Of a stretch of DNA of 36,426 bases, positions 3,247 through 36,269 are shown piece after piece. A model generated the notes under the pieces. The model was given only the letters and a program-made list of their open reading frames with translations. It was not told where the DNA came from and made no database searches. Position 1 is the stretch's first letter. The number at the start of each line of letters is the position of its first letter. The position numbers and the translations under genes were made by a program. Source of the stretch: Phosphitispora fastidiosa (GTDB lineage Bacteria > Bacillota > Thermincolia > Thermincolales > UBA2595); the NCBI RefSeq assembly GCF_019008365.1, contig NZ_JAHHUL010000028.1, forward strand, positions 1-36,426, given 5' to 3'.

Positions 3247-3262
3247 ACGGGGGGTGAGCGAT

Positions 3263-6002: not shown

Positions 6003-6024
6003 GCCAAGGAAGGAGAAAAGCATA

Positions 6025-12876: not shown

Positions 12877-12886
12877 GGGCCGAAAA

Positions 12887-13717: not shown

Positions 13718-13720
13718 CAT

Positions 13721-15094
13721 ATGACTAAATACCTTCTTGCTGGTGATTATGATTACAAAGAAGTCCAATCTTCGAAAAAAGAAGATTACATGAAGGTTAC
13801 CATACCATTCAAGGCTAATGATAATTCCCTTCGGTTTGGTATAGGCCATGCTCTGGAAAAACTTAATGAGAATAGTATATATCCAACCGAAGACGGCATT
13901 GATATTCTCAGCCTCGCAGGTTTGATCTATCTTGCTGATACTAGAATTTCACGAAGTTTCCATTCGCAGGACAGTTGGACAAGAGAAATCGGCATTGAAA
14001 TACCGGTTTTTCACCTTGAAAAGTGGGTGCCTCTTGGAGAATTGTTTACGAGGATGCTCAATTTTCTGACGGGTGACCGTTGGATAATATCGTTCAGAAA
14101 AAGAGATGAAGCGCTTTCGGGGAAACCTAAAGATGATGCTAAACCGCCGGAATTTGATGCGGTTACTCTTTTTTCTGGTGGGATGGATAGTTTAATCAGC
14201 ACAATTAATCATCTCGAAAACCATAATAAAATAGCCCTTATAAGCCATGCCGGAGACGGATATACAAAAAACGCCCAAAACAAGCTGTTGAGTTGTTTCC
14301 GAGAAAAATACCCTGATATTTATCCGCTATATCTCGATCTGTGGATGGTCTTCGAGAAAAATATGATCCCTGGTGCAGGAATAGAAAACTCAACGAGAAG
14401 CCGATCATTTCTATTTATTGCTTTTGGTATCTTTGCCATGAGTGGAATGAAGGGAGTATCAATCTTGCAAGTACCAGAAAACGGGTTGATAGCATTGAAT
14501 GTTCCGTTGGACGAACTACGCACTGGTTCCCATAGCACACGGACGACACACCCCTTTTACTTGGATTCATGGAATCAGGTGTTGAAAGGCTTAGGACTTG
14601 AGTTCTCTGTTCAAAATCCATACTGGAATAGAACAAAAGGAGAAATGGCTGACGAGTGTTTGAACAAAGAATTTCTCCAGCAAGTGATACCAGATTCAAT
14701 TTCCTGTTCTTCTCCGCATAAAGCTCGTTGGAGTGGTTCTGCTCCTCAACACTGCGGTTATTGTGTTCCTTGCCTAATCCGCAGGGCTGCAATGAATAAG
14801 GCTTTCAGGGAAGAAAAGGACTGTACTCCTTATTTAATAGACAGTGTTTCAGAAATAGCTGTCAATCATGCAAAAGGAAAAGGAGTACAACTTCGTTCTT
14901 TTCAAATTGCTATTAAAAAAATTAAAGAGCAACCACAACTGGCAAAAATTCTGATACACAAGAGCGGTCCTCTTCCTGGCGATAGCGCTTATCTGAGAGA
15001 GTTATCGGAAGTATATCGGAGGGGGCTATTGGAAGTTGATGATTTCATAATAAAAAATTCCGAAAGTGAGAGGAATACACAAGAAGGAGTATAA
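13721..15094 (+). CDS. qatC: QatC, QueC-like PP-loop ATPase
   Basis: This 457-aa member of the QueC (7-cyano-7-deazaguanine synthase) superfamily starts ATG 13721 behind GGAGG, three bases after qatB. The PP-loop ATP-binding motif is LFSGGMDSL at ~151-159. A Cys cluster near residues 328-350 (CSSPH...HCGYCVPC) matches the QueC zinc site. An N-terminal extension of ~140 residues is not found in housekeeping QueC. No queD, queE or queF lies nearby, which argues against preQ0 synthesis as such. In defence systems QueC-like proteins are thought to modify a protein or nucleic acid partner, and the substrate here is unknown. Confidence 0.9.
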   Translation: MTKYLLAGDYDYKEVQSSKKEDYMKVTIPFKANDNSLRFGIGHALEKLNENSIYPTEDGIDILSLAGLIYLADTRISRSFHSQDSWTREIGIEIPVFHLEKWVPLGELFTRMLNFLTGDRWIISFRKRDEALSGKPKDDAKPPEFDAVTLFSGGMDSLISTINHLENHNKIALISHAGDGYTKNAQNKLLSCFREKYPDIYPLYLDLWMVFEKNMIPGAGIENSTRSRSFLFIAFGIFAMSGMKGVSILQVPENGLIALNVPLDELRTGSHSTRTTHPFYLDSWNQVLKGLGLEFSVQNPYWNRTKGEMADECLNKEFLQQVIPDSISCSSPHKARWSGSAPQHCGYCVPCLIRRAAMNKAFREEKDCTPYLIDSVSEIAVNHAKGKGVQLRSFQIAIKKIKEQPQLAKILIHKSGPLPGDSAYLRELSEVYRRGLLEVDDFIIKNSESERNTQEGV

Positions 15095-15119
15095 AGGAGA
15101 TATAGTGTGGTGACCGGTT

Positions 15120-15860
15120 ATGGAAATTTATGATATGCACTGCCATGTAGATTTGATGCAATCCATGCATGAATTCTGCAAAGCGGCTCTGGAAGAGAGG
15201 ATCAATCTATTGGCGATGACAACAACGCCAAAGGCGTTTGAGATCGAAAAGGAAAGGCTCGGGAATTTCTCTAACGTTCAAGTCGCCTTGGGGCTACATC
15301 CGCAACTTGTTTTCAATAGATTCCAAGAACTTGCTCTCATTGAAAAATATATACACACAACAAAATTCGTTGGTGAGATTGGTTTGGATTTTAACAAGCA
15401 GTTCTATCATTCCAAGGAACGCCAGATAGATGTGTTCTCACAAATCATTGAGTGGTGTCAAAGATCACCCATGAAAATTATATCAATACATTCTGTTCGA
15501 TCGGATAAAGATGTACTGGATATTTTAGAAAAATATGATTGTACTAAACATAATAAATGTATCTTGCATTGGTATTCTGGAACATTAAAACAGCTGGATA
15601 GAGCTATAGATCTTGGCTGCTTTTTCTCAGCCAATGAGTATATGCTTAATTCTCCAAACGGGCAGTCGATATTACAGAGAATTCCTGTCGAGCGATTATT
15701 ATTAGAATCTGATGCTCCGTTCATATCAGATATTAAAACGGTTGAGCAACTCAAACGAAGCTTGACTTACTGTCTTAATAACCTAAGTGTAATAAAGGGA
15801 AACGAAGTATCGAATTGCATTTTTGAAACAAGCCGTCGATTACTTAAAAGCTATAGATGA
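15120..15860 (+). CDS. qatD: QatD, TatD-like metal-dependent DNase
   Basis: This 246-aa TatD-family amidohydrolase-fold nuclease carries its metal ligands in order: DMHCHVD (His7, His9), VGEIGLDF (Glu near 86), SIHS, HWYSG (His near 150) and ESDAPF (Asp near 197). It completes the qat set. The ATG at 15120 is 25 bases after the qatC stop. An AGGAGA at 15096-15100 is too far for this start, but it is well placed for GTG 15105, which opens a two-codon frame GTG-TGG-TGA ending at 15113. Translation of qatD may therefore depend on reinitiation. A strong terminator follows the gene. Confidence 0.9.
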   Translation: MEIYDMHCHVDLMQSMHEFCKAALEERINLLAMTTTPKAFEIEKERLGNFSNVQVALGLHPQLVFNRFQELALIEKYIHTTKFVGEIGLDFNKQFYHSKERQIDVFSQIIEWCQRSPMKIISIHSVRSDKDVLDILEKYDCTKHNKCILHWYSGTLKQLDRAIDLGCFFSANEYMLNSPNGQSILQRIPVERLLLESDAPFISDIKTVEQLKRSLTYCLNNLSVIKGNEVSNCIFETSRRLLKSYR

Positions 15861-15874: not shown

Positions 15875-15919
15875 GAATAAAGCCTTCAAGAGGCCAACAC
15901 GCTTTTGAAGGTCTTATTC
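15875..15919 (+). terminator. Terminator of the qat operon
   Basis: GAATAAAGCCTTCAA (15875-15889) pairs with TTGAAGGTCTTATTC (15905-15919) at 13 of 15 positions across a 15-base loop. It ends the defence operon just where the IS relic begins. Confidence 0.75.
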
Positions 15920-15952
15920 GACACAATTTACTTTACCAACATAGATGCTTAA

Positions 15953-16405
15953 GTGGAAGCCTTCCTTTCGCAAAACCGGGATTCCTGGATTGCGGCTTAT
16001 TGCAATACGTATAAGTTCTTTGGCGGTGTTAACCGAATTTTGGTTCCTGATAATCTGAAAACCGGCGTGGAAAAAGCCACCTGGTCCTCTCGGAGATAAA
16101 CAAAACCTATAATGGCAGAACACTATGGAACTGCCGTTATTCCGGCACGGGTCGGAAAGCCCAGGGACAAGCCCAATAGCGAAGAGTCTGTTAAGATTAT
16201 CTCTACATGAATTAGTGCCGCTCTGCGCAACCAGAGATTCTTTAGTCTTGCAGAACTTAATGATGCCAATAGAAAAAAGTTGGCGGCATATAACAGTCAG
16301 CCTTTTCAAGGGAAGGAGGGCAGTAGACTCACCGTCTTTCTTGAGGAAGAGAAGCCGTTGCTGTTACCATTGCCCGCCGCCCCGTGGTTCCCTTTTTCCG
16401 GAACA
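15953..16405 (+). pseudogene. istA: IS21-family transposase (istA) relic
   Basis: Translated fragments in shifting frames match the C-terminal half of IS21 IstA: EAFLSQNRDSWIAAY, then KFFGGVNRILVPDNLKTGVE, a frame break with in-frame stop (AGA TAA), AEHYGTAVIPARVGKP, ALRNQRFFSLAELN, and EEEKPLLLPLPAAPW. The conserved VPDNLKTGV and AEHYG..VIPAR blocks are diagnostic. The N-terminal half, istB and terminal repeats are missing, and several indels and stops are present, so this is a long-dead partial copy. A minus-strand open frame over the same bases is a shadow. Confidence 0.85.
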
Positions 16406-16726
16406 GTAGTTCCCACTTACCGGAGCGGTGGTGTAAAACCGTCCGGATTATTCAGTTAGCATTATAAAAGGATAGATTTGTATTATTTTTGGTCGTAAGA
16501 TATTAACGTGCTTTCTGATGATGAGAGAAGGAAGAGTAAATGAATTTAAACACACTATTGAATGAATAAAACGACCAATGACAATCACCGTATCCGAGAC
16601 TAGATAAGTAAATACGAGAAAAACAAATTTTAAGCGGCACATATGATATAATTTAAAAAAACAAGCTAAAAAACAAAAAAAACAAAATGTAAGTGATTCG
16701 GGTAAAACATTCTCAAGGTGAATAAC
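16406..16726 (+). other. Non-coding stretch with hairpins and promoter
   Basis: No gene was found. Near the end of the istA relic a hairpin CCGGA-g-CGGT...ACCG-TCCGG occupies 16420-16446. The rest is AT-rich, with A-tracts at 16653-16686 just after the promoter described next. Confidence 0.4.
16642..16652 (+). promoter_or_regulatory. Extended -10 promoter ahead of the XRE relic and MORC operon
   Basis: TATGATATAAT carries a perfect TATAAT (16647-16652) with an extended -10 TG one base upstream. The -35 is weak. It has the same architecture as the promoter at 7822-7832. It precedes the regulator relic and the operon starting near 17020, with no other promoter seen between. Confidence 0.55.
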
Positions 16727-16934
16727 GTGGCGGTAAGAAGCTCTGGAAGCTGATTATCGGCAAAAAGATGAAAAAGAAAGATTTAAAGTCTGCAGCAGGC
16801 GTCAGATCCAGCTTTATCACAAAACTTGGGCGTGATGAGCCTGTACGACTGTGCTTATGAAAATATGCGCTGCTCTGCAGTGCGATATTGGCGATATCAT
16901 GGAAATCATTCCTGACGAACCGAAAAGGATGTGA
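16727..16934 (+). pseudogene. Frameshifted XRE-family (Cro/C1-like) regulator
   Basis: Pieces of a small helix-turn-helix repressor are readable in different frames: KKLWKLIIGKKMKKKDLKSA, AGVRSSFITKLGRDEPV, then after a missing base LMKICAALQCDIGDIMEIIP and a stop at 16934. A GTG at 16727 with AAGGTG upstream would be the old start. About seven bases seem lost between it and KKLW, and one base at ~16849, so the regulator is dead. Intact relatives are ~70 aa. Its place directly ahead of the MORC-Z1 operon, behind the shared promoter, suggests that it once controlled that operon as a C-protein-like regulator. Confidence 0.8.
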
Positions 16935-17019
16935 CCACCGTGAGGGAATAATGCCGTCGGTTTACCTGATCAGCAGAGAAAAGTACAATTATTAGAATAT
17001 GGAGAAGAGGAGGCAAATT

Positions 17020-18483
17020 TTGAAGACTATTTGCTTGCCGCCGTATGCACCGACACTTATTGAGTCTACTCGTGCTATCGGCTATACACTAGAATCGGCA
17101 ATTGCCGACATTGTAGATAACAGTGTCTCAGCATCGGCTTCGTGTGCTGAAATCTTCTTCTTTCCGATTGGGGATTCATACATAGCAATACTGGACAACG
17201 GCTGCGGAATGAATGCTGGTGAGCTTGAAACTGCTATGCGCTATGGCAGCCAGAATCCGAATGACAAACGGGCGGCCACAGACTTAGGGCGTTTTGGGCT
17301 GGGTTTAAAAACAGCTTCTTTGTCACAGTGCCGCACATTGACAGTCGCCAGCAAAAAAGACGGCAACATTGAAGTCCGCCGCTGGGATATTGACTATGTA
17401 GTCAAGACTGGGGAGTGGTCGCTCATTGTGTTGGAAACCGAAGAAGAAATTAACGCAGTACCCCGCATCGATAACTTGCGTGAATTTGAAAGCGGCACAT
17501 TGGTTGTGTGGCAGAATCTTGACAGGCTCAAAGTCGGCGAATTGAATTTTGACTGCTCTATGGGCAGAAAGATGGATGATGTCCGTGCCCACCTCTCTCT
17601 GGTGTTCCATCGATACCTTAGCGGAGAAACCGGGCTGAAGAAGCTGCAGATTAAAATGAACGGAACTGCTATTGATTACGCCGACCCTTTTCTGACACGC
17701 AGGAACACACAGGTAATGGCTGATGAGGAGTTGTTTATTGAGGACGCAAAAGTCGTTGTCCGTCCATACATACTCCCCCACATCTCAAACTTATCCGCCG
17801 ATGAGATAGATAAACTTGGGGGCAAAGAGGGATTGCGGAAAAGCCAAGGGTTTTATGTATACAGGAATAAACGCCTTTTGGTTTGGGGGACATGGTTTCG
17901 CATGATGCGGCAGAGTGAGCTTTCCAAGCTGGCTCGGATTCAGGTCGACATACCAAATGATCTGGACAGCCTTTGGACGCTTGATATTAAAAAATCAACG
18001 GCTGTTCCCCCGGAGATCGTCAGAAACAATCTGGAATCCATTATTGAGCGGATGGCAGAGCGCAGCAAGCAGACGTGGGTATTCAGAGGGAAAAAGGAAA
18101 CGAATGACTCTGTTGTTCACATTTGGCAGCGGTTTAAGGGAACACAAGGCGGCTTTTTCTACGGCATTAACCGTGACCACCCTTTGGTAGAGATGTTCTT
18201 GGATGCACCGCCGCAAATAAGGCGGAATGTCGAAGCATTATTAAAGGCTATTGAAAACGGGATTCCGCTTAATCAGCTATACCTCGACTTAACATCAGAA
18301 AAGCCGCTTGAGAATGAAACCGAGGTCACGGCGAATGAAATAGAAAGCATGCTGAAATTGCTTATTGACCAGATGCCTTCAGTTGCAGCTAAAAGAGAGT
18401 TGCTGGACAGGCTTTCTGTGTCCGATCCATTTGTAAATTATCCTAAAATTATTGAGAGGTACCAAAATGGAGGCGATTTATAA
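17020..18483 (+). CDS. GHKL ATPase of the MORC/MutL-like restriction family
   Basis: TTG 17020 is preferred because AGAGGAGG ends six bases before it. An in-frame ATG at 16999 has no RBS and would add seven residues. Counting from 16999, the Hsp90/MutL-type ATP site is complete: N-box SAIADIVDNSVSA (33-45), ILDNGCGM (64-71), and glycine-rich lid DLGRFGLGLKTASLS (95-109). A ribosomal-S5-like transducer region probably follows, then a helical tail. MORC-like ATPases next to Z1, PD-(D/E)XK, AIPR and C5-methylase genes were described by Iyer, Abhiman and Aravind (2008) as a restriction-like system. It may act as an ATP-driven DNA clamp. Its stop overlaps the Z1 start (TAATG). Confidence 0.88.
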   Translation: MKTICLPPYAPTLIESTRAIGYTLESAIADIVDNSVSASASCAEIFFFPIGDSYIAILDNGCGMNAGELETAMRYGSQNPNDKRAATDLGRFGLGLKTASLSQCRTLTVASKKDGNIEVRRWDIDYVVKTGEWSLIVLETEEEINAVPRIDNLREFESGTLVVWQNLDRLKVGELNFDCSMGRKMDDVRAHLSLVFHRYLSGETGLKKLQIKMNGTAIDYADPFLTRRNTQVMADEELFIEDAKVVVRPYILPHISNLSADEIDKLGGKEGLRKSQGFYVYRNKRLLVWGTWFRMMRQSELSKLARIQVDIPNDLDSLWTLDIKKSTAVPPEIVRNNLESIIERMAERSKQTWVFRGKKETNDSVVHIWQRFKGTQGGFFYGINRDHPLVEMFLDAPPQIRRNVEALLKAIENGIPLNQLYLDLTSEKPLENETEVTANEIESMLKLLIDQMPSVAAKRELLDRLSVSDPFVNYPKIIERYQNGGDL

Positions 18484-21257
18484 TGGCTGTAACTAATGTT
18501 GAGCAATTGGAGGGCATGATTTCCTCAAACATAAATACGCAGTTCAAGGAAGTTCCTCCTAGCGAAGCGGAATTTGACAGGATAGCTGACACACTCAGAC
18601 AGTCACTTGCCTCGTTTTGCCCAGTGACGGATGACGAGTTTGAGGACTTGAAGCGAAGGCTCAAAGCCAACATAGTCGTCGTCATGGATATTGGTGTGGT
18701 GATTAAAGATGACAAACGGCCGCATCAATCTTGGCTCCCGTCACGGCGTTCTGAGCTCGACTTCTTCTTTTGGAACAGATATAAAAAGTATCTTGAAGAG
18801 ATAAAACACTGGAATCCAAGGGTAACTGGAAATCTTGGGCGTGTTTCTGATGAGATTGTCGACCTTCTGGGGGACCCCAAAGCGAAAGATGATTTCCAGC
18901 GGCGCGGCCTTGTACTGGGTGATGTGCAATCAGGAAAAACCGCTAATTACACAGCCATCTGCAACAAGGCGGCAGACACGGGTTATAGAGTTATCATTGT
19001 GCTTGCGGGTATGATGGAAAATCTGCGCCAGCAAACGCAGGAACGGTTGGACGCAGAATTTTCTGGCAGGAAGAGCGAATATTTCCTGGACCCAACTAAG
19101 AAGGAAATCAGGAATGAACCCGTCGGCGTTGGAAGATACGGAACGAATAAACGCATTGCTTCCTTCACATCTGTAATCAAGGATTTTGATATAAATATAC
19201 TGAAAAGCAACGACCTGTCGCTGCTCAGTGTGAGCGATCCTGTCGTATTTGTTGTTAAGAAGAATAAGAGTATCCTCAATAACCTCATACGGTGGCTGCG
19301 CAATAACAACACAGTCGCAGGGCAAAAAATCGATTTACCTATGCTCCTGATTGACGATGAGGCTGATAACGCTTCCGTCAACACCAAAAAGGAGGACGAA
19401 GATCCGACGGCAATCAACGAAGCGGTTCGGACACTTTTGGCGTTGTTTCGGCAAGCGTCATATTTAGGTATAACCGCAACGCCATATGCGAATATTTTCA
19501 TCAATCCTGAAACCACTGACGACATGCGCGGAGATGATCTGTTCCCGCGGGATTTCATTTACTCCCTGGCACCGCCGTCGAACTATATTGGGTCAGATAG
19601 TATCTTTGGCGTGGAAGCACCTTTCAGGGAAGCTCTTGAAGAATTACACCCGCAAGAAATGGATGCCTTTTTCCCGTTCAGCCATAAAAAAGGGCATCCG
19701 GTCACCGAGTTGCCTCCGAGCATGAAAGAAGCTATGGCGTATTTCCTGCTTATAAACGGCATTCGTGATGTGCGCGGAGATTACAAGGCTCACCGTTCCA
19801 TGATGATTCATGTCAGCAGATTTACGGATGTTCAAAACCAAATCCGCGATCTGGCAACTGAGTGGATTTTGCAAATGCGTTCTGATTTACAAAACTACTC
19901 GCGTTTGTCTGAAAAAGAAAGCAGTAAAATACCTGGCATTGCCTACTTGAAAGCTGTCTGGGACAAGCATTTTCTAGGTGAAAAAGCTGGTGTGCCGGGT
20001 AATCCTATGCCATGGCACATGTTCCTTTCGGAGTATTTGTTTAAGGCTGCAGCACCGATAGATGTACGGGCGGTCAACCAGCAGAGCGGCTCCACAAGCC
20101 TTGATTACTTCAATCATCGCGAGGATGGTCTGCGTGTTATCGCAGTGGGCGGCAACAGCCTGTCCAGAGGGTTAACACTTGAAGGGTTATGCGTAAGCTA
20201 TTTCTACCGAAAATCCCAAATGTACGATACATTACTACAAATGGGGCGATGGTTTGGTTACCGTCCCGGATACGATGACCTGTTCAAGATTTGGATAAGC
20301 GTAGAGGCCATCGACTGGTACGGATACATAACGGCAGCGGCGGAAGAGCTTAAGCTCGAAATTGCACGGATGAAGAACGCCAACCTCACACCGCTGGAGT
20401 TCGGGCTGAAGGTTCGGCAAGACCCAGCTTCCCTAATCGTCACCGCAAGAAACAAGATGCGGGCAGGTACGATGGTAAAACGCCCTGTTACAGTTTCCGG
20501 GCGCTTGCTGGAAACTCCGCGGCTAAAAGCCGACGCTGCATCTCTGAAAGCCAATGAGGATGTATTCAAGGAATTTGTCCGTCGGCTGGATACCATAGGA
20601 CAGCGGACTGCTCGGGAAGACGCACGCTATTTCTGGGAGGGCATTAATAAAGACGAAGTCGAGCAGCTTCTCCGTGATTTCAAAACTCACCCGTGGCATC
20701 TCTCGTTCCAGGGACAAGCACTTGCAGACTTTATCAGAGACAAAATGGGCAATGCCTCATGGGATGTTGTTATTGCCGAAGGTTCCGTAGAAAATTCCTA
20801 TACAGAGTTGTATTGCGGCACTGAACAGCTGCCGATGAAACCAGAAAAACGCACCATTATTGCGACGCGAGAGCAAATCAGTATCAGCGGAACGAAGGTG
20901 CGTGTAGGCGCCGGCGGCGCAACAAAGCTAGGGTTAACGAAAGAGCAGCGGGAGGAAGCTGAAGCTGCATTCAGGCGGGACCACACCGGCAAACTGCACG
21001 TTTCCGACAGCGCTTACTTAATTGAAGGTCGTGCGCCCATTTTGATGCTGCACGTTATAGCCGTTGACCGGAACGGCACCGATAAAAACGGCAAGGTGCG
21101 GACACAAATTGTAGAGGGCTGCCAAGTGCCGGATTTCCTTTTTGCGCTGGGTGCGGGCTTCCCGTTGACAGGGCTGCCCGAAGAAACAGCAAGTTATATG
21201 GTTAATATGGTTGAACTAAGCAGTTACTATGATTCCGAGGAGGATAACGACGAATGA
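18483..21257 (+). CDS. Z1-domain superfamily II helicase-like ATPase
   Basis: This 924-aa protein carries SF2 motor motifs: Walker A LVLGDVQSGKTANY (~143-156), Walker B LLIDDEADNAS (~287-297), GITATPYANIF (~330-340), GGNSLSRGLTLEGL (~555-568) and the arginine-finger motif QMGRWFGYRPG (~585-596). The last two are signatures of the Z1 domain. The N-terminal ~140 residues and a ~300-residue C-terminal part are specific to the family. It probably moves or remodels DNA for the neighbouring nuclease. It overlaps the ATPase upstream (TAATG) and the nuclease downstream (ATGA), so the proteins are probably made in matched amounts and may form a complex. Confidence 0.93.
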   Translation: MAVTNVEQLEGMISSNINTQFKEVPPSEAEFDRIADTLRQSLASFCPVTDDEFEDLKRRLKANIVVVMDIGVVIKDDKRPHQSWLPSRRSELDFFFWNRYKKYLEEIKHWNPRVTGNLGRVSDEIVDLLGDPKAKDDFQRRGLVLGDVQSGKTANYTAICNKAADTGYRVIIVLAGMMENLRQQTQERLDAEFSGRKSEYFLDPTKKEIRNEPVGVGRYGTNKRIASFTSVIKDFDINILKSNDLSLLSVSDPVVFVVKKNKSILNNLIRWLRNNNTVAGQKIDLPMLLIDDEADNASVNTKKEDEDPTAINEAVRTLLALFRQASYLGITATPYANIFINPETTDDMRGDDLFPRDFIYSLAPPSNYIGSDSIFGVEAPFREALEELHPQEMDAFFPFSHKKGHPVTELPPSMKEAMAYFLLINGIRDVRGDYKAHRSMMIHVSRFTDVQNQIRDLATEWILQMRSDLQNYSRLSEKESSKIPGIAYLKAVWDKHFLGEKAGVPGNPMPWHMFLSEYLFKAAAPIDVRAVNQQSGSTSLDYFNHREDGLRVIAVGGNSLSRGLTLEGLCVSYFYRKSQMYDTLLQMGRWFGYRPGYDDLFKIWISVEAIDWYGYITAAAEELKLEIARMKNANLTPLEFGLKVRQDPASLIVTARNKMRAGTMVKRPVTVSGRLLETPRLKADAASLKANEDVFKEFVRRLDTIGQRTAREDARYFWEGINKDEVEQLLRDFKTHPWHLSFQGQALADFIRDKMGNASWDVVIAEGSVENSYTELYCGTEQLPMKPEKRTIIATREQISISGTKVRVGAGGATKLGLTKEQREEAEAAFRRDHTGKLHVSDSAYLIEGRAPILMLHVIAVDRNGTDKNGKVRTQIVEGCQVPDFLFALGAGFPLTGLPEETASYMVNMVELSSYYDSEEDNDE

Positions 21258-22195
21258 GAACAACGCCTGAAATCCTCCAAAGGCAATGGAACAGCATCGA
21301 CTACAAGGACGGCGGGTTCTTGCAGATTGATACCCAGCACCCGCTTGAATGGCACATTGGTTATCAGTCAATTAGCCAGAAAACCCTGTTACTTGTTTGT
21401 ACCACGGATATTGGAACAATCGAATCCTCAAAATCTATGTCGGTAACCCGCCGCAAGAGGGAGACCGATAACCGCTGGACGCTTTCGTTTGAACTTCTCC
21501 GTAACGAACAAGAAGGTGTTTTTGCCATCCTTTGCTCTGATATTATTGAGCACTCACGTTCGGCATCAAATGAAAAAGAATCATTGGCACTGGTCATCAG
21601 CCGCTACAAGCAATGGAGCCGGTTACTGGAATCACAAAGAAGAGGATTGATGGACGAAAATAGCCGGAAGGGATTGCTTGGTGAACTCCTGTTTTTACAG
21701 GAACAAATTGAAGAAAGAGATTCCGCCTTGGCTGCAATACAGGGCTGGGTAGGCGCGGACGGCGCTGACCAAGATTTCATATATGAAGATGGCTGGCACG
21801 AAGTAAAAAGCGTTGGCGCCTCTGCAACGGCCGTAACTATTTCTTCACTTGAGCAGCTTGACTGCGCCGGTGAAGGTGAACTTGCAGTAATGCGTATTGA
21901 CAAGGCCGCTCTAGATAAGGCGGGTGCATTATCACTTAACGATGCGGTACGGCAGATCAGCATCAAGTTAACTGACGCCACAGATGCGCTGGACTTATTT
22001 CGCTTAAAACTGAGTGCATACGGTTATATCGATTTACAGGAATATTCTGAACAGAAATATTACTGCTCCGGTTTGCAACGGTACGGCGTGAATGACACAT
22101 TCCCAAGGCTCATAAGGCGAAACGTTCCAACACAAGTTGAATCTTTGCATTACGAATTAAGCCTGTCCTCGCTGGCAGACTGGCTGAAAGGGTGA
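21254..22195 (+). CDS. PD-(D/E)XK nuclease-like protein (DUF4420 type)
   Basis: This 313-aa protein starts ATG 21254, overlapping the Z1 stop by ATGA. The nuclease core is visible as GLLGELLFLQ (Glu ~143), then GADGADQDFIY (Asp ~174), then WHEVKSVG (Glu and Lys ~182-184), giving the E...D...ExK pattern of restriction endonucleases. It is the partner gene usually found beside Z1 proteins and the likely DNA-cutting subunit. The N-terminal ~130 residues resemble a binding domain and have no recognised motif. Cleavage presumably needs the Z1 and MORC-like ATPases, which is an inference from operon structure. Confidence 0.87.
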   Translation: MRTTPEILQRQWNSIDYKDGGFLQIDTQHPLEWHIGYQSISQKTLLLVCTTDIGTIESSKSMSVTRRKRETDNRWTLSFELLRNEQEGVFAILCSDIIEHSRSASNEKESLALVISRYKQWSRLLESQRRGLMDENSRKGLLGELLFLQEQIEERDSALAAIQGWVGADGADQDFIYEDGWHEVKSVGASATAVTISSLEQLDCAGEGELAVMRIDKAALDKAGALSLNDAVRQISIKLTDATDALDLFRLKLSAYGYIDLQEYSEQKYYCSGLQRYGVNDTFPRLIRRNVPTQVESLHYELSLSSLADWLKG

Positions 22196-22200
22196 ACCAT

Positions 22201-24285
22201 ATGGACGCACAGGAATTCCGAAAAGATTTTATAGAAGGAGTTAAAGCCGAGGCGGCAGCCACCGGCGAGGGTTCCAGCGCGTCATTCGTGAGTGCTTTTG
22301 CTCAGTATCTGCAGGAAGCAGAATTCCTTATGGACTTCACCGCTGCCTACTTTGAGGGGACAGGAAAGCGCAACCGAAAGCTGCGTGTTGACGGATATGT
22401 TTACGATGAGTTTGACAAAACCATGAGCCTGATAATCGCCGACTATGATGCTTCTGAAAGTGAGCGGGTGCTTGCCAGAACTCAGGCCCGACAATTGCAG
22501 GAACGGTTAAGTGCTTTTGTAGACCACGCACTGAATTCCACCCTTCACCGTGAAGTTGAGATGAGCAGACCCTGCTCTGACTTAGTGGACTTACTGCGCG
22601 AAAAACGCCGGGAAATCCGCAAATATCAGCTTTTGATATTTACGACGGCCATCATCAGCGCCACAATAACCAAACTCGAGTCCGCTGATATTGATGGGGT
22701 TTCCTCCGAGTGCCAAATATGGAATATTGACCGCTTATTCAAAGTCTGCGGTTCAGACACGGGACGGCACATCATTGAGATTGACTTCAAAGAGCATTCC
22801 GAGCATGGCATCCCTTGCGTGGAGGCAAGCGGTACCGCAACAAAAGACTTTAAGAGTTACCTGTGCATTATCCCCGGTGCCCTGCTGGCGGATATTTATG
22901 ACAAATACGGGAGCGGTTTGCTGGAAGGCAATGTACGGTCGTTTCTTTCCACTAAAGTAGCAGTAAACAAAAAAATACGCGCTACTATTCTGCAATACCC
23001 TGAAAGGTTTTTCGCTTACAACAACGGTATTTCTGCTACCGCAATGGATATTCAAATCGAATCCGCTCCACAGGGGCAGTTTCTTGTCTCTGTAAGGGAT
23101 TTTCAGATAATTAACGGCGGTCAGACTACTGCGTCTCTGTCAAATGCGAGGTTCCGTGATAAAGCCGACCTTAGCACCATCTTTGTGCAAATGAAGCTTA
23201 CAGTAATTGAGAGGACACTGGAAGAGGAGGCAACCGAGCTTGTTCAGAACATTTCACGTTCCTCTAACAGCCAAAACAAAGTCAGCGATGCCGATTTCTT
23301 CTCAACGCATCCATATCATGTCCGTATGGAGAGATTTTCTCAGCGTCTGTACGCAAGAGCGGTTGGCGGTCTTCAGCACGAAACGAAGTGGTTTTACGAG
23401 CGGGCGCGCGGGCAGTATCTGCAGAAACAGATGCGGATGACTGCTGGCGAGAAAAAGAAGTTCCTGCTCCAGAATCCGAAGAATCAGCTTATAACGAAAA
23501 CCGACCTTGCAAAGGTTCGGAACACTTGGAGGGGTTTGCCCCATACTGTAAGCCGTGGTGCGCAAACTAATTTTGCCGAGTTTGCGAAAACGACAAGTGA
23601 CGAGTGGGAAGCATCTGATGACGGGCTTGTTTTCAACGAAAAGTATTTTCAAGAAAGCGTTGCTTTAGTCCTGATATTTAGGTATAGTGAACTGATGGTG
23701 ACACATCAGCCATGGTATTCACAAGGTTATCGTGCCAATATTGTAACCTATACCATTGCTCTTTTTCATATGCTTATACAGAAACAGTTTCCGGGAATGG
23801 ATTTGGATTTGATGAATATCTGGACACGTCAAAACGTCCCGGATGCTGTTGCCAATGCTCTGACCGAATTGTCTGAACTTGTTTATGATAAGCTGACCGA
23901 CCCGCAAAGAGGAGTTGAAAACGTTACCCAGTGGTGCAAACAAGAAGGGTGCTGGAGAAACGTTCAAAGTATCGATTACAGATTATCACCTGAAATTGAG
24001 GCGTGCCTCATTGGACGAGAAGAGCGAAAAGCCGCTGAAAGGGAAGCTAAAGCTGACCAGCGGATAGTTTCGGATGCAGAAATTATGACTAAGATTGTAG
24101 AACTTTCTCAGGTGCAATGGCAAAATGCTCTGAGTTTTGCCACGGGCAGGCGGATGATTACGCCAGATGAACACACTGCCCTGCGAATTGCATGTCAGAT
24201 ACCTCAAAAAATGCCAACTCCGATCCAATGCAAAAGACTTCTTTCTGTACTGGAACGGTTACAGGAGGAGGGATTTAAGCTATGA
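22201..24285 (+). CDS. AIPR-family abortive-infection-type protein
   Basis: ATG 22201 is chosen because AAAGGG ends eight bases before it. A GTG at 22192 lies inside that RBS. The ~694-aa protein carries the AIPR signature: RFFAYNNGISATAMDI (~280-295) and FQIINGGQTTASLSNA (~303-318). It has a charged Glu/Lys-rich segment near residue 600. AIPR proteins (abortive infection phage resistance) occur as a fixed member of Z1-nuclease operons. Their biochemical action is not well established. The gene overlaps the previous one by its RBS and the following methyltransferase by ATGA, so it is firmly part of this operon. Confidence 0.9.
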   Translation: MDAQEFRKDFIEGVKAEAAATGEGSSASFVSAFAQYLQEAEFLMDFTAAYFEGTGKRNRKLRVDGYVYDEFDKTMSLIIADYDASESERVLARTQARQLQERLSAFVDHALNSTLHREVEMSRPCSDLVDLLREKRREIRKYQLLIFTTAIISATITKLESADIDGVSSECQIWNIDRLFKVCGSDTGRHIIEIDFKEHSEHGIPCVEASGTATKDFKSYLCIIPGALLADIYDKYGSGLLEGNVRSFLSTKVAVNKKIRATILQYPERFFAYNNGISATAMDIQIESAPQGQFLVSVRDFQIINGGQTTASLSNARFRDKADLSTIFVQMKLTVIERTLEEEATELVQNISRSSNSQNKVSDADFFSTHPYHVRMERFSQRLYARAVGGLQHETKWFYERARGQYLQKQMRMTAGEKKKFLLQNPKNQLITKTDLAKVRNTWRGLPHTVSRGAQTNFAEFAKTTSDEWEASDDGLVFNEKYFQESVALVLIFRYSELMVTHQPWYSQGYRANIVTYTIALFHMLIQKQFPGMDLDLMNIWTRQNVPDAVANALTELSELVYDKLTDPQRGVENVTQWCKQEGCWRNVQSIDYRLSPEIEACLIGREERKAAEREAKADQRIVSDAEIMTKIVELSQVQWQNALSFATGRRMITPDEHTALRIACQIPQKMPTPIQCKRLLSVLERLQEEGFKL

Positions 24286-25913
24286 GTCCTGACGCAGAAT
24301 CAAAGTACAGCGTTGTTGATTTGTTTGCCGGTGCAGGCGGGCTTAGCTATGGGTTTCTTCAAACAGGCAGATTCTCCATAAAGGCAGCCTTTGAGAACAA
24401 CCACAATGCACAGAAAACTTATAAGCGTAACCACGGAAATACTGCGGTTTATAATGACGTTGCCGACGCCCTTAGCGATGACGTAAAAGTGAAACTCGGC
24501 AAAGTAGATGTTGTCATCGGAGGACCACCGTGCCAAGGGTTTTCTAATGCAAATCGGCAGAAGAACCATGCTATCAGTCAGAATAACTCGCTTGTAAAGA
24601 AGTTCGTTCAGGTCGTACTTCATCTGAACCCGATGGCGTTCGTAATGGAGAATGTGAGCATGCTGCAGTCGGATGTTCACCGTTTTTATGTAGATAAAAC
24701 CGATGCGGAAACCATAGAAAAATACAGCATTAAAACCACCCCCTCGGAGATTCAGCTTCTTGACTCAGAGTTCATATTTCCGGGCGTTGCTGACATTGCA
24801 AGAAACATGACACGGATTTCAAGTTATCTTTGGAAAGAGAACGACTATTTATCGCTCAATGTAGTATTCAAAACACGCAATAATCCCAAAAAGTTATGTG
24901 CTTCGTTGGAAAAACACAAAAAAAGGCTTCTTGCACTCGCGAACAACCTTGTTGCGGCATTTGATGAAAACGACTCTATTTTGAAACACTCATATGCTGC
25001 AGGTGTGGCAATACAAAGTTATTTTACCGCTACTGCAACCTACGAGGCCGCCGAAAAACTTTGCAGGGCGATCATGCCGGCAATTATGCTGCAACGAATG
25101 CTCTCAAAGGCAAAGGAAATAATGGATAACCGTATCGTGGTTGACCACTATTCAACCGAGAACGGTCTTGTTGCCCATGTCACTTCTATGGCGGTGATAG
25201 ACTATATTGAATCCATTCTGGGAGCCACAAGCACAGGATACAGCATAAATTATGGTGTTTTACCGGCCGTTGCCTTTGGTGCGCCTCAAAAGCGGATGCG
25301 CTTTGTTCTCATCGGTGTAAAAAAGTCCATATGTGATGATGTTAAGCTTCTAACCGGCACATTCACTGAAGCAAACTATCGTACGGTTAAAGATGCGATT
25401 AAGGATTTAGAGGAAATTGAGACGGCAACTGAGGTGTCTGACGGAGACCAAGGAGTACAGTTACCTGACGCTCCGAAAGACATAAGTGAGCTTGGAAAAC
25501 AACTGCGCGATTCAAAAAATCTTTGCAATCATGTTTCTACGGCAACAACCTCAGACGCACTGGAACGGTTTATGGCGATTAAGCCAGGAGACAATTTCCA
25601 CAGCTTGCCGCCAGAACTTAAAACCACTTACTCTGATACGGAGCGCACACAAAAAACCATTTATCTGCGTTTAAAATACGACGAACCATCCGGCACAGTT
25701 GTCAATGTCCGGAAATCTATGTGGATTCATCCAGTGAAGCATCGCGCCCTCAGTATACGAGAAGCAGCGCGTTTGCAGACTTTCCCCGATAGTTTCGTGT
25801 TCTGCGGAACCAAGGATTCACAATACCAGCAGGTAGGCAATGCAGTGCCTCCGATGCTAGCAAAGGCAATAGCAGAGCATCTGTGCGGATATTTGGATTG
25901 TGGAAGCAAATAG
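24282..25913 (+). CDS. DNA (cytosine-5) methyltransferase with a large internal insertion
   Basis: This 543-aa enzyme transfers methyl from SAM to cytosine C5. Motif I is VVDLFAGAGGLSYGF (11-25), motif IV IGGPPCQGFSNA with catalytic Cys84, motif VI VMENV (121-125), motif VIII APQKRMRFVLIG (~335-346) and motif X QQVGNAVPPMLAKAI near residue 517. About 210 residues separate motifs VI and VIII, where compact enzymes such as M.HhaI have roughly 40. The extra helical block (~130-320) is an unrecognised insertion. It probably marks host DNA for the adjacent nuclease system. The recognition sequence cannot be read from the protein. Confidence 0.94.
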   Translation: MSPDAESKYSVVDLFAGAGGLSYGFLQTGRFSIKAAFENNHNAQKTYKRNHGNTAVYNDVADALSDDVKVKLGKVDVVIGGPPCQGFSNANRQKNHAISQNNSLVKKFVQVVLHLNPMAFVMENVSMLQSDVHRFYVDKTDAETIEKYSIKTTPSEIQLLDSEFIFPGVADIARNMTRISSYLWKENDYLSLNVVFKTRNNPKKLCASLEKHKKRLLALANNLVAAFDENDSILKHSYAAGVAIQSYFTATATYEAAEKLCRAIMPAIMLQRMLSKAKEIMDNRIVVDHYSTENGLVAHVTSMAVIDYIESILGATSTGYSINYGVLPAVAFGAPQKRMRFVLIGVKKSICDDVKLLTGTFTEANYRTVKDAIKDLEEIETATEVSDGDQGVQLPDAPKDISELGKQLRDSKNLCNHVSTATTSDALERFMAIKPGDNFHSLPPELKTTYSDTERTQKTIYLRLKYDEPSGTVVNVRKSMWIHPVKHRALSIREAARLQTFPDSFVFCGTKDSQYQQVGNAVPPMLAKAIAEHLCGYLDCGSK

Positions 25914-25948
25914 CATGATCCGAGAGGAACCATTTCGGAGGCAGTCAT

Positions 25949-26365
25949 ATGGCGGATACACATTCTAAAGAAACCAGAAGCTACAATATGTCACACATCA
26001 GAAGCCGGAACACACAACCGGAGACAATGGTGCGAAAGTTCCTGTTTTCTAAAGGACTGAGGTTCAGAAAAAATGACAAAAGATACCCTGGTCATCCTGA
26101 TATTCTGCTTTCGAAGTACAGAGCAGCTGTGTTCATAAACGGCTGTTTCTGGCACTGCCACGAGGGATGCTCTGATTTTGTTCTTCCAAAGTCCAATCAG
26201 GACTACTGGGAGCCAAAGCTTAGGAAAAATCGCAAACGTGATGAAGAAAACTATGCTGCCCTTAGAAAAGATGGATGGAATGTGTATATCGTCTGGGAAT
26301 GTGAACTGAAAAAGGCTGCCGGGGATGAGCGACTTGAGCAACTGTATCTGCAGATAACTAAATGA
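25949..26365 (+). CDS. vsr: Vsr-type very-short-patch mismatch endonuclease
   Basis: This 138-aa protein is about the length of E. coli Vsr. It has the family path SYNMSHIRSRNTQPE, YPGHPDILLSKYRAAVFING, CFWHCHEGC, then YWEPKLRKNRKRD and a WECELKK end. Catalytic Asp51 (in GHPD) falls at the same number as in E. coli Vsr, and the zinc ligands (CFWHCHEGC) are present. Vsr nicks T:G mismatches arising from deamination of 5-methylcytosine, so it protects sites methylated by the C5 methyltransferase encoded 35 bases upstream. ATG 25949 follows GGAGG. It closes the operon. Confidence 0.95.
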   Translation: MADTHSKETRSYNMSHIRSRNTQPETMVRKFLFSKGLRFRKNDKRYPGHPDILLSKYRAAVFINGCFWHCHEGCSDFVLPKSNQDYWEPKLRKNRKRDEENYAALRKDGWNVYIVWECELKKAAGDERLEQLYLQITK

Positions 26366-26635: not shown

Positions 26636-27946
26636 ATGCTATTAGATATGGAAATTTCACCTAAATTAAATAATGACAATCCTGTGTACCCGCAGAATAG
26701 TTGGTATTTTTATTATGCGGGATATGCCGATGGATTTATCAAACATGCAATTGAGAAATACGGAAATACTTTTAAAAGTCCTGTTATCGTTGACCCCTGG
26801 AATGGATCAGGAACAACCACATTAGTGGCGAGCATGATGCATTTAACATGTTATGGGTTTGATATAAATCCAGCTATGATTCTCATAGCTAAAGCAAAAC
26901 TATATAATGCTAAAATGTTGGATATAGAAGAAATGAAGATTCAGTTATCATTAATTATACCAACGCAACTATCAAATGAAGAATATTCAGAAGATCCTTT
27001 GAATAACTGGTTTACGTTAGAGTCTTTATCAATAATTCGGAATATTGAGGAAGTGATACAGAACATTACTGGCTTTAAGCAAAATGATAGGAAACTTATA
27101 CGTATTAAAGGGCTATGTAATATTGAGACATTAAGTTATGAAATGTCTTTTTATTATTTGGCATTGTTTACCACTATTAAACAATTTACAAAAGTTTTTG
27201 TTGGTTCAAATCCAACTTGGATTAAATCTAAAAATATTGAGAAGTTAAATATTGATTCATCAGAGCTAGTTAAGCTCTATTTAAGTAATATTGAAAGTAT
27301 GAAAACTGACTGCTCAGAAGGCGTTGATCTCCAAAAGATATATTTGTCTATTGGGGACTCGAAAAGCATCCCACTAAAAAATGAAACCGCAGATATGGTT
27401 ATCACTTCTCCTCCGTATTGCACCAGAATTGATTATGCTGTGTATACAAAAATTGAATTATCATTACTAGGATATAATAGCTCCGATATCCAGAATTTGC
27501 GTAGGGAGATGATTGGGACACCTACGATTAGAAAAGGAATAGATTACTCAAAACCCCCTCAACATATTCAGTTTTTGGAAGTATCAAATAGTTGTTTAAA
27601 TACGATGGAACAAATTTTAACACACCAAAGTAAGGCAGCAAAGAGTTACTATTATAAAACATTCATTCAATACTTTATTGGAATGTATGAATCGGTGAAA
27701 GAGATATATAGGATACTCAATAAAAACGGAATTGCAATTATAGTAGTCCAAGACTCGTGGTTTAAAGATGTTTATGTAGATGTACCCGGAATTGTCATAG
27801 AATTTGCTCAGTCTTGCGGCTTTTCAATAATAGAAAAAAACGACTATGAAGTAAGAAATAATATGAATTATATAAATACAAAAAGTAGGGGATATAAAAA
27901 GTCAAAAAGATCCGTTGAATCGGTAATTACTTTTAGGAAAGGATAG
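26636..27946 (+). CDS. DNA amino-methyltransferase (N4-cytosine or N6-adenine)
   Basis: This 436-aa Rossmann-fold methyltransferase has SAM motif I VDPWNGSGTTTLVAS (52-66), the next acidic strand CYGFDINPAMI (~72-82), and catalytic motif IV VITSPPYCTRIDY near residue 257. SPPY is commonest in N4-cytosine enzymes, while N6-adenine enzymes mostly use DPPY or NPPY, so m4C is favoured but not proven. The ~190 residues between motifs I and IV are large enough to hold target recognition. The gene begins the AT-rich block. The RBS is weak (AAAGG), and ATG 26648 is an alternative start. It abuts the DUF262 gene and is probably the self-marking part of a three-gene system. Confidence 0.85.
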   Translation: MLLDMEISPKLNNDNPVYPQNSWYFYYAGYADGFIKHAIEKYGNTFKSPVIVDPWNGSGTTTLVASMMHLTCYGFDINPAMILIAKAKLYNAKMLDIEEMKIQLSLIIPTQLSNEEYSEDPLNNWFTLESLSIIRNIEEVIQNITGFKQNDRKLIRIKGLCNIETLSYEMSFYYLALFTTIKQFTKVFVGSNPTWIKSKNIEKLNIDSSELVKLYLSNIESMKTDCSEGVDLQKIYLSIGDSKSIPLKNETADMVITSPPYCTRIDYAVYTKIELSLLGYNSSDIQNLRREMIGTPTIRKGIDYSKPPQHIQFLEVSNSCLNTMEQILTHQSKAAKSYYYKTFIQYFIGMYESVKEIYRILNKNGIAIIVVQDSWFKDVYVDVPGIVIEFAQSCGFSIIEKNDYEVRNNMNYINTKSRGYKKSKRSVESVITFRKG

Positions 27947-27951
27947 TGCAA

Positions 27952-29142
27952 ATGGAGAATAATTTAACTGCGATTATTGATGAGAGAATAAAAGAATTAA
28001 AAATCACCTCACTTGATATTTCATTTAATGAGTTAGCTGATATGTACAAAAATGATGAGTTGATAATAACTCCAAACTATCAAAGAACATTTAGGTGGGA
28101 CATTTCAAGGCAGTCAAGATTTGTTGAATCGTTACTATTAGAAATGCCTATTCCACCAATTTATGCAATAGAGATTGAAGACGGACGCTACGAATTAATT
28201 GATGGTTTGCAAAGAATATCGTCATACTTAAACTATAGAGGTTTACTAAAGGAACTTCCAGTTGAACCTAAAATGGCTTCTGATGTGTTGATTGAAGATG
28301 TTGATGAAAATGATGAAGTCTTAGAGGATGAAGAAGATACTGCTGCAGATGTTGAAAGGGGATTTGCTTTAAGCGGGTGTGATATAATTCCAGAATTAAA
28401 TGGAAAGCGTTTCGATGATTTACCGGCAAGCATGAAAATAAAAGCTAAAAGATCTTTTGTTCGAATGGATGTTTTACGCAAGGGAATAAATCCTCAGTTA
28501 AAATACCATATGTTCAAGCGGTTAAATACTGGAGGTGAAAAATTATCTTATCAAGAACTTCGGAATTGCTCAATTAGATTGATAGATAACAAATTCATTG
28601 ATTTCATTAATGATTTAGCAAGCAATGCAGATTTTTTGCAAACATTAGCATATGTAAGTAAAAATCAAAAAAAGAAAAAGTTTGCAGAAGAACTTGTATT
28701 GCGTTTTTTTGCACTGAAGAATAAGTTTTCATCGTTTTCTCACAATGTAGATTCATTCTTAACAGAATACATGGAGGAAATATCCATGGGCGATACTTTA
28801 CATGAACCTAAATTCAACTATTTTAAGGAAAAAGAGGTCTTTGAAAATACCTTTAGAATATTAAATAATTCTCTCGGAAAAGAAGCTTTTGCAGTATATA
28901 AAAATAATTCTCAGAAGCTTTCTGGATTCAATGTTTATCAATATGAAGCAATTACAACAGGTATGCAATCAATATATGAGGAACTTGTAAATGGTAGCTA
29001 CCCTATTAGCAAATTTACTGAAAAAATCAAAGAAGCTAAAATGGATAAAACTTTTAAATTATACACTGTAGGTGGAGGAAAAAATTCTTCGGGTGTTTTG
29101 ATGAATCGATATCAATTCATTGTTAACAAATTAGGTGAATGA
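27952..29142 (+). CDS. DUF262 protein without an HNH domain
   Basis: ATG 27952 is chosen because AAAGGA lies eight bases upstream. A GTG at 27946 overlaps the previous stop. The 396-aa protein has the DUF262 core: ITPNYQRTFRWD (39-50) and YELIDGLQRISSYL (80-93), the nucleotide-binding and processing motifs shared with GmrS and ParB/Srx-like proteins. A strongly acidic insert follows at ~112-132. The C-terminal half is helical and has no HNH motif, unlike the DUF262 protein at 7931-9673. It would need a separate effector, and a HEPN protein starts within its stop codon (ATGA). It is probably the sensor or NTP-dependent switch of the operon. Confidence 0.85.
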   Translation: MENNLTAIIDERIKELKITSLDISFNELADMYKNDELIITPNYQRTFRWDISRQSRFVESLLLEMPIPPIYAIEIEDGRYELIDGLQRISSYLNYRGLLKELPVEPKMASDVLIEDVDENDEVLEDEEDTAADVERGFALSGCDIIPELNGKRFDDLPASMKIKAKRSFVRMDVLRKGINPQLKYHMFKRLNTGGEKLSYQELRNCSIRLIDNKFIDFINDLASNADFLQTLAYVSKNQKKKKFAEELVLRFFALKNKFSSFSHNVDSFLTEYMEEISMGDTLHEPKFNYFKEKEVFENTFRILNNSLGKEAFAVYKNNSQKLSGFNVYQYEAITTGMQSIYEELVNGSYPISKFTEKIKEAKMDKTFKLYTVGGGKNSSGVLMNRYQFIVNKLGE

Positions 29143-29867
29143 ATATGACGTTTTCTGAACTATGTGAAAATATACTGGAAGAGCTTGAAATTGAATATAG
29201 TAATCGAATAAGTGAACTCGTAGAATACGAAAACTTTATGGCCACATACTCTCAAAATGAAGTGTTTAATGAAAATTACAGAAAGATGTTAACTATTATG
29301 TTATATTCGTATTTTGAGGGTTTTTGCAAACAGTCTTTGTTAATCTATGTGGACTACTTAAATAGAACTAATGAATTAGTGTCTAGAATAAAACATGGAT
29401 TAGCAGCTGCAACAATTGAGAAGAGCTTTGTAAATCTTGCTAATTCAAATCATAAGCCTGTTGATTTAGGAGAAAGAGCGCTGAAAGAAGATGGGATTTT
29501 GCAATTATATGGACGTAGGAGGGAATTCTTTTCTGAGTATGTTGATATTGTAGGGAAGACATTATGTATACCGGACGGAGTGGTTGATACAGAATCTAAC
29601 TTAAAGTCTAGTGTTCTAAAGAAATTGCTTTATAAATTGGAGATTGATTTTTCTATTGTTGATGATTTCCAAACAGACATTAATGAAGTTGTTAACAAAA
29701 GAAATGCATTGGCACATGGTGACCGGACTCGTGGAGTCACATTGAATGAGTACATAAAATATAGAGAAAATGTAATTAATTTGATGGGACTATTGAAATC
29801 TACAATTTATGAAAATTTCTACTATAAGAAATATTTAAAAGAGCATGATTCAGGAACAGCTGTGTGA
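29139..29867 (+). CDS. HEPN-domain protein, predicted RNase effector (MAE_28990/MAE_18760-like)
   Basis: This 242-aa, all-helical protein overlaps the DUF262 stop by ATGA. Its C-terminal part carries VNKRNALAHGDR, the R-x4-H motif of HEPN ribonucleases (Arg188, His193), followed by a Thr-rich turn and a final helix. The N-terminal half (YEEF-like aromatic phrases such as LYSYFEGFCKQSL) fits MAE_28990-type HEPN proteins, described by Anantharaman and colleagues as defence-linked RNases. It may cleave host or phage RNA when released or activated by the DUF262 partner. The family call is good. Activity and regulation are inferred. No clear terminator follows. Confidence 0.8.
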   Translation: MNMTFSELCENILEELEIEYSNRISELVEYENFMATYSQNEVFNENYRKMLTIMLYSYFEGFCKQSLLIYVDYLNRTNELVSRIKHGLAAATIEKSFVNLANSNHKPVDLGERALKEDGILQLYGRRREFFSEYVDIVGKTLCIPDGVVDTESNLKSSVLKKLLYKLEIDFSIVDDFQTDINEVVNKRNALAHGDRTRGVTLNEYIKYRENVINLMGLLKSTIYENFYYKKYLKEHDSGTAV

Positions 29868-31231: not shown

Positions 31232-31780
31232 ATGGTTATTATGCTTTTTGGTATAACGAATGTAGGAAAGACTGTAACGGGTGAGAAGCTTGCCGAAAAA
31301 TTGAATTATTCTTTTTTTGATGTGGATGAAGAAATAAAAAAGAGATTTCAGACGACCTTAGAAAAATTTATGCAAGATCACCCATTTTCATATGAACGAG
31401 GTCAAATAAAGGGTAAGATATTAAGGGATTTACTGAAAGAATATAGAGATAACATCGTTATTGCAGTAAGTCCAATTTATTATGCAAGGCATTTTAACTC
31501 ACTTTTAGACTTGGAACAGGTAATTGCTATTGAATTACAGGATTCAGAAGAACACATTTTTGAGAGAATGGTTTTTTCTGATGAAAATGACAATATATAT
31601 AAAGATGATGCATATAAGGAAGAACATAAAGATTATTATATTAAAGATATACATGAAGATATTGTATATGCAAGAAGGATTTTTAAAAAAATAGAGAATA
31701 AGTATTTCATAAATAATCGTTCTGTAGATCAAGTTGTTGATGAATTGATGGCCATAATTCATAATATATCTATTGAATAA
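31232..31780 (+). CDS. Small P-loop kinase-like protein (shikimate-kinase-like fold)
   Basis: This 182-aa protein has a P-loop at its N-terminus, MLFGITNVGKTVTGEKLAEK (residues 4-23), followed by an acidic strand SFFDVDEEI typical of shikimate/gluconate kinase-like nucleoside kinases. A lid-type Arg/Lys-rich region follows. The family's substrate motifs are not clear, and there are no aromatic-pathway genes nearby, so it is unlikely to be the cell's AroK. The C-terminal 60 residues are AT-rich and Tyr/Lys/Asp-heavy. Base composition is low GC, like the HEPN operon. It may be a mobile resistance or nucleotide-handling kinase. The RBS is weak. Confidence 0.6.
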   Translation: MVIMLFGITNVGKTVTGEKLAEKLNYSFFDVDEEIKKRFQTTLEKFMQDHPFSYERGQIKGKILRDLLKEYRDNIVIAVSPIYYARHFNSLLDLEQVIAIELQDSEEHIFERMVFSDENDNIYKDDAYKEEHKDYYIKDIHEDIVYARRIFKKIENKYFINNRSVDQVVDELMAIIHNISIE

Positions 31781-36244: not shown

Positions 36245-36269
36245 GACATAAATCACCTCCTGCCGACAT

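Follow-up and report, generated by a model that had tools for sequence, protein, structure and literature searches.

A stretch of 36,426 nucleotides of the Phosphitispora fastidiosa genome (contig NZ_JAHHUL010000028.1; this whole stretch is called the window below) carries six open genes on the plus strand, which the open reading frame (ORF) analysis places at 17020-26365 without long gaps. In order, they encode a MORC-type GHKL ATPase, a Z1 superfamily 2 (SF2) motor, a PD-(D/E)XK nuclease (DUF4420), an AIPR protein, a C5 methyltransferase and a Vsr endonuclease. The operon is a new member of an already described, predicted anti-phage class, and the new point is the exchange of its Z1 gene among relatives. 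From its sequence, we read it, with a probability of roughly 0.6, as an ATP-dependent anti-phage system resembling restriction-modification, with an exchangeable Z1 motor and with its specificity in a subunit that co-evolves with the methyltransferase. The features are as follows (lengths in amino acids, aa; L numbers designate related loci):

16727-16934, + strand: pseudogene of a small XRE/HTH_26 regulator, frame broken by two small deletions
17020-18483, + strand: mzaB-like gene, prokaryotic MORC protein (GHKL ATPase, S5 domain), 487 aa from the TTG start (PF13589, 2.6e-31)
17970-21210, + strand: exchanged cassette, C-terminal third of the MORC and the Z1 gene (approximate breakpoints against L007, L012 and L016)
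18483-21257, + strand: mzaC-like gene, Z1-domain SF2 helicase/translocase, 924 aa (PF10593, 8e-75)
21254-22195, + strand: mzaD-like gene, DUF4420 PD-(D/E)XK nuclease, 313 aa (PF14390, 4e-61)
22201-24285, + strand: mzaE-like gene, AIPR protein, 694 aa (PF10592, 2e-98; PF22879, AIPR_N, 7e-37)
24282-25913, + strand: C5-cytosine DNA methyltransferase, 543 aa, motif blocks separated by a large insert (PF00145, 2e-58)
25949-26365, + strand: Vsr mismatch endonuclease, 138 aa, accessory (TIGR00632, 146 bits, cut-off 97.85)

A previous interpretation made from the letters alone (the sequence-only reading) had described six genes linked by TAATG, ATGA and ribosome-binding-site overlaps. All six ORFs are indeed present and open, matching the named families at strong scores. 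The mzaB/mzaC junction is a TAATG (18481-18485), ATGA overlaps join mzaC to mzaD (at 21254) and mzaE to the methyltransferase gene (at 24282), and a spacer of 35 nucleotides, with GGAGG before vsr, follows the methyltransferase. The linkage was overstated at one junction: the start of mzaE is probably ATG 22201, since M4 is the first invariant residue in the alignment, and thus mzaD and mzaE lie 5 nucleotides apart and do not overlap. For mzaB, the start is probably TTG 17020, which follows AGGAGG and is kept in relatives, whereas the upstream ATG 16999, giving a longer ORF of 494 aa, is not.

Relatives were collected as 19 loci from a genome scan with Z1, to which a DNA search added two records from a plasmid collection. 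The order MORC-Z1-nuclease-AIPR-methyltransferase is constant in all 17 loci complete over the five genes (51-94% identity per gene), the methyltransferase directly following the AIPR gene in each of them. Those of the 17 with a named organism fall into Bacillota, Nitrospirota, Thermodesulfobacteriota, Campylobacterota and Synergistota. A Vsr homologue is found in nine of the 17, seven times downstream on the same strand, once on the opposite strand (L006) and once upstream (L009), a distribution that makes Vsr an accessory gene of the operon. The earlier idea of a complete six-gene set thus holds for a fixed five-gene core and does not extend to Vsr. Elsewhere, the distant loci L022 and L023 have a methyltransferase and Vsr upstream of a four-gene core, and a methyltransferase also adjoins an annotated Thalassospira MZA and four more distant sets. 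The ratio of nonsynonymous to synonymous substitution rates (dN/dS) of the six genes lies between 0.06 and 0.13 against L005, L015 and L007 wherever it could be computed (in the comparison with L007, dS of Z1 and of Vsr is saturated), so that all six genes are under purifying selection. Given the constant order in 17 relatives and these ratios, the arrangement is more than chance. No other members were detected in nine other genomes of the host's own order, and a sample of 398 genomes of the phylum held no further close relative, yielding just three relatives with 34-41% Z1 identity besides weaker matches to helicases; viral contigs, searched for a related set, gave no AIPR match. An HNH_2-type protein, weakly similar to phosphorothioate-DNA restriction enzymes, follows the methyltransferase in L007 (11546-12316), L015 and L012, and in L007 and L015 it precedes Vsr; no HNH remnant was found downstream of the methyltransferase of the window. 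The comparison separates the fixed core from the optional Vsr, HNH genes and regulators, and so indicates the minimal set to clone.

Within the core, the Z1 gene has a history of its own. In sliding comparisons of the window with L007, L012, L016 and L017, DNA identity is approximately 73-92% in the N-terminal part of the MORC gene and 71-92% across nuclease, AIPR and methyltransferase, as against mostly 60-75% over ~17.97-21.2 kb. For the encoded proteins, identity of the window, L005 and L015 to the L007 group is 83-90% in the MORC N-terminal part and 81-89% in the nuclease-AIPR-methyltransferase block, compared with 69-72% for the MORC C-terminus and Z1, where identity within each group is 90-95%. 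Another exchange separates Paenibacillus L006 from Cohnella L010, with the two flanking blocks being 96% and 93% identical and Z1 only ~72%; the breakpoints of L006 against L010/L020, at 18.44-18.53 and 21.12-21.21 kb, are the borders of the Z1 gene. In approximately unbiased (AU) tests, the Z1 tree rejected the operon-type clades (p 8e-8 and 3e-5) and the trees of the other blocks rejected the Z1-type clade (p 9e-93 and 6e-6). These p-values are lenient, as the clades were picked after the identities had been seen; the log-likelihood differences (105-1036) are large. Rank correlations of pairwise distances over 13 loci range from 0.43 to 0.83 among the MORC N-terminal part, nuclease, AIPR and methyltransferase, and from -0.08 to 0.44 between these and the two Z1 halves (-0.08 to 0.23 for Z1 with the methyltransferase), in a sample that is biased by having been fetched with Z1 patterns and that would miss very different Z1 alleles. 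Taken together, the sequences show two clear events in which Z1 was exchanged while nuclease, AIPR and methyltransferase were not; one of these events included the MORC C-terminus. Chimeric assembly was considered as a source of the incongruence and rejected, the allele groups recurring across several independent assemblies. In a limited literature search, no earlier report of such an exchange was found.

The proteins themselves retain most of the expected residues. MzaB carries the S5 signature GFYVYRNKRLL (residues 284-294 of the 494-aa ORF, with G284 and R292 invariant) and has human MORC4 and MORC2 as its best PDB matches. At the GHKL general-base position it has Asp (D37) instead of Glu. 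All aligned relatives that have a residue there share the Asp, as do MzaB of the annotated MZA and of the more distant sets; the substitution is therefore characteristic of the family and does not reflect damage. MzaC conserves Walker A (142-153, with GDVQSGKT), the DDEAD motif (291-295) and DTLLQMGRWFG (582-592). By sequence, MzaC and MzaD gave only chance-level matches to solved structures. In MzaD, E144, D174 and E183-x-K185 are invariant in 18 alignment rows; its AlphaFold2 model has a predicted local distance difference test (pLDDT) score of 89.6, and the top three VIA matches of residues 113-313 are PvuII, EcoRV and 3ndh, whose middling Z (5.4-5.9) is consistent with a restriction-endonuclease-like fold. 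The methyltransferase motifs GGPPCQG, ENV, QKRMR and GNAVPP are all intact, and Vsr keeps E25, D51 and H69 (E. coli numbering), with His64 replaced by Asn here and in some relatives. The claim that every catalytic motif is intact can thus be retained for Z1, the E-D-ExK nuclease and the methyltransferase, and has to be qualified for the GHKL Glu and for Vsr His64.

AIPR (MzaE) is less readily interpreted. It gave no sequence match to solved structures at E up to 1, Foldseek returned no significant match for the models of either MzaD or AIPR, and the MzaE model is weak (mean pLDDT 65.7). In this model, the mixed alpha/beta N-terminal region (3-189) repeatedly aligns in VIA with PD-(D/E)XK folds (FokI, EcoT38I, HamA of Hachiman, McrC and Shedu; Z 4.9-6.3), and residues 214-369 align, at the same low confidence, with the ParB N-domain (Z 5.6) and SspE (Z 4.4). 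Conserved core motifs are RFxAYNNG, NGGQTT and NSQN. An active PD-(D/E)XK nuclease in the N-terminal domain was rejected because the candidate catalytic residues, D67 and the D84-x-D86 position, vary in more distant members. We therefore read MzaE, as far as the model allows, as a non-catalytic nuclease-like N-terminal domain fused to a conserved, partly ParB-like core. The N-terminal domain of AIPR was earlier proposed as a HEPN RNase (PMC3506569), for which an all-helical fold would be expected and which the MzaE model, at low confidence, does not support.

Several described systems resemble the operon. The third, MORC/Z1 operon class of Iyer et al. 2008 (PMC2292703) frequently includes Vsr and cytosine methylases and shows AIPR in its neighbourhood figure. 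The match to this neighbourhood that the sequence-only reading proposed is borne out by the published signatures for S5 (GhXhhpXXRhl), Z1 (DThhQXuRhFG, to which DTLLQMGRWFG at MzaC 582-592 is an exact fit) and the nuclease (E-D-ExK), and we see no essential difference between the class and the window operon. The remark that the class has had little mechanistic study agrees with the literature found; two closer precedents had been overlooked, namely the MZA system of PADLOC and NCBIfam and the type II of Miller, Stern and Burstein 2022 (PMC9523054). The latter is a putative defence type in which Z1, PD-(D/E)XK, AIPR and a cytosine methyltransferase are accompanied by MORC and a regulator, and it is related to MzaB-E at ~20% identity. 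Its gene content showed no difference from that of the window operon, both having a Z1 protein of ~925 aa, a PD-(D/E)XK DUF protein, a C5 methyltransferase and AIPR, as well as low similarity to MzaB-E; the type has subtypes II-A and II-B, and in the window the regulator is a pseudogene. Miller et al. describe MZA as validated, citing Gao et al. 2020. With MZA (MzaABCDE) the operon shares homologues of MzaB, C, D and E in the same order, recognised by PADLOC and NCBIfam models (NF041932 MzaB, E 1e-109), although none of the NCBIfam equivalog cut-offs is reached (MzaB 367 bits against 850, MzaC 525 against 1500, MzaD 114 against 420, MzaE 310 against 1050). MZA has a sigma factor, MzaA, beside mzaB, where the window has no such ORF and instead the XRE pseudogene, and MZA as named includes no methyltransferase, whereas in the window methyltransferase and Vsr adjoin. 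On these sequence comparisons, the operon is a diverged cousin of MZA. In the annotated MZA locus of Thalassospira marina, MzaE is followed (L041:10699-11868) by a restriction enzyme of AspBHI/Mrr type and a C5 methyltransferase. Finally, CglI/NgoAVII (PMC4267653) likewise combines a Z1-containing SF2 motor, which depends on a separate nuclease subunit to bind the site, with a 5-methylcytosine methyltransferase acting on the site. That nuclease, however, is a phospholipase D (PLD) enzyme with a B3 specificity domain, and the system has three genes, with no MORC, AIPR or DUF4420 described; Pfam finds no PLD match among the window operon proteins.

MORC ATPases act in eukaryotes in transposon silencing and chromatin organisation. 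For bacterial MORC relatives from restriction-like operons, our literature search found no biochemistry, and the intact close relatives and naturally occurring Z1 chimeras of this locus give an experimental opening on these systems.

The XRE gene was correctly seen to be frameshifted: the remnant at 16727-16934 carries its two small deletions relative to intact copies upstream of mzaB in L007 and L016, which encode Cro/C1 proteins of ~70 aa (the L016 homologue matching PF13443). The suggestion that expression may consequently have escaped regulation has weak support: this is possible, though the data do not point to it. The same gene is broken in L015 (a stop) and L017 (frameshifts and a stop), and an upstream match to it is absent in 14 of the 19 relatives, although for L014 and L005, whose upstream sequence is short, absence is unproven. 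Other loci carry other regulators, with a different XRE in L003, L008 and L019 and a WYL regulator plus a diverged XRE in L004, while a small protein of ~80 aa without Pfam match lies upstream in L003, L005, L008 and L019. DNA similarity between the window and L005 starts only at 17005, at the mzaB start. With regulators varied, broken or absent, the upstream module is therefore exchangeable and often lost, and an intact paralogue, 59% identical, exists elsewhere in the host genome (C6:83449), which weakens the suggestion further. On these comparisons, the XRE loss means little. No plasmid match to the XRE region was found, and a promoter scan upstream of the operon gave no signal above chance.

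For the mechanism, we infer biochemical steps, a phage-defence role, subunit contacts and a place of specificity along the following lines. The methyltransferase would mark host DNA at target sites, with Vsr repairing the T:G mismatches left by deaminated 5-methylcytosines. When incoming DNA lacks these marks, a dimer of MORC may close, acting as a clamp or looping element driven by ATP, while the Z1 SF2 protein would translocate along the DNA and the DUF4420 protein would cut it, AIPR being a structural or sensing subunit and not a nuclease. Site choice would lie in a subunit evolving with the methyltransferase (nuclease or AIPR) and not in the Z1 motor, which was swapped once along with a MORC part that may dock on it. 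In favour of this restriction-like scheme speak the families and their motifs, the five-gene order, dN/dS of ~0.1, the MzaD fold, the defence-island setting (below), Z1 exchange without the methyltransferase and the CglI/NgoAVII precedent. Several points weigh against it: the type II of PMC9523054 is itself a prediction; MZA as named lacks a methyltransferase, so that protection by methylation is not a certain part of the mechanism; the AIPR fold matches rest on a model of mean pLDDT 65.7; and AIPR proteins take their name from abortive infection, a process that would imply cell suicide instead. This last point leads to an alternative in which the MORC, Z1, nuclease and AIPR proteins form a complex that responds to a phage signal by killing or arresting the cell, while the linked methyltransferase and Vsr stand apart from it as a solitary pair for modification. 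The naming of the AIPR/AbiU1 family (PMC3506569), the NCBIfam naming of MzaA-E without a methyltransferase and the optional Vsr agree with it, but the methyltransferase is next to AIPR in all 17 complete relatives, with an ATGA overlap here, and also adjoins the Thalassospira MZA and the four more distant sets, and we regard this alternative as unlikely. Far less credible is an operon that is decaying with its regulator and no longer expressed, as might be suspected from the broken XRE, a transposase-like remnant upstream and the missing promoter signal; the six frames are open, dN/dS is 0.06-0.13, and the operon is kept in the 14 relatives without this XRE.

The exchange bears on the specificity part of the restriction-like scheme. 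Z1 was exchanged without the methyltransferase and is therefore unlikely to recognise the site of that enzyme. The joint exchange of the MORC C-terminus suggests that this part contacts Z1, and the second event, which left it in place, makes the dependence not strict. If the system works like CglI/NgoAVII, the motor could be swapped with the protected site unchanged, which fits the trees. Tentatively, and rating it at clearly less than even odds, we consider that the Z1 motor, alone or together with the MORC C-terminal docking part, is a module swapped under selection (for example, for escape from a phage inhibitor or for a change of trigger), while a co-evolving core of nuclease, AIPR and methyltransferase keeps the modification site; this would make it a restriction-modification-like system with a variable motor instead of a variable specificity subunit. 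Competing with this part only, and not with the restriction-like nature of the system, is the view that Z1, as the longest gene of a mobile operon, underwent neutral homologous recombination, in which case the exchange would say nothing about specificity or partner contacts. The length of Z1, helicase blocks whose conservation would favour recombination, and the fetching of loci by Z1 patterns make it a serious contender that falls somewhat short of an even chance, given that the L006 breakpoints fall at gene borders and that Z1 alone has a near-zero distance correlation with the methyltransferase, against 0.43-0.83 for the others. The sequences fit adaptive and neutral exchange alike.

By its gene content, the window is a defence island. 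Directly upstream of the operon lies a complete QatABCD set (10936-15860; KAP ATPase, QatB, QueC-like and TatD-like proteins; PADLOC ~250-750 bits), preceded by a GmrSD/DUF262-type protein (7931-9673; PADLOC HEC-05, 777 bits) and a SAP-domain protein (9737-10894) without PADLOC match. The transposase-like remnant, with broken frames, is located between Qat and the operon (15914-16460) and has no detectable similarity to an rve/AAA transposase pair at 34165-36256. Three coupled genes downstream (26636-29867) encode an N6/N4 methyltransferase, a GmrSD_N protein (PADLOC NsnA, PD-T4-2_A) and a MAE_28990-type HEPN protein, possibly a separate modification and toxin-like defence set. Several large serine recombinases, some of them partial, flank the island on both sides (2539-7680 and 30017-31045) and are probably the integration machinery of the element. 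Further downstream, a RhuM-family protein (31956-32927; PF13310, PADLOC PDC-S05, 490 bits) adjoins a shikimate-kinase-like P-loop protein (31232-31780).

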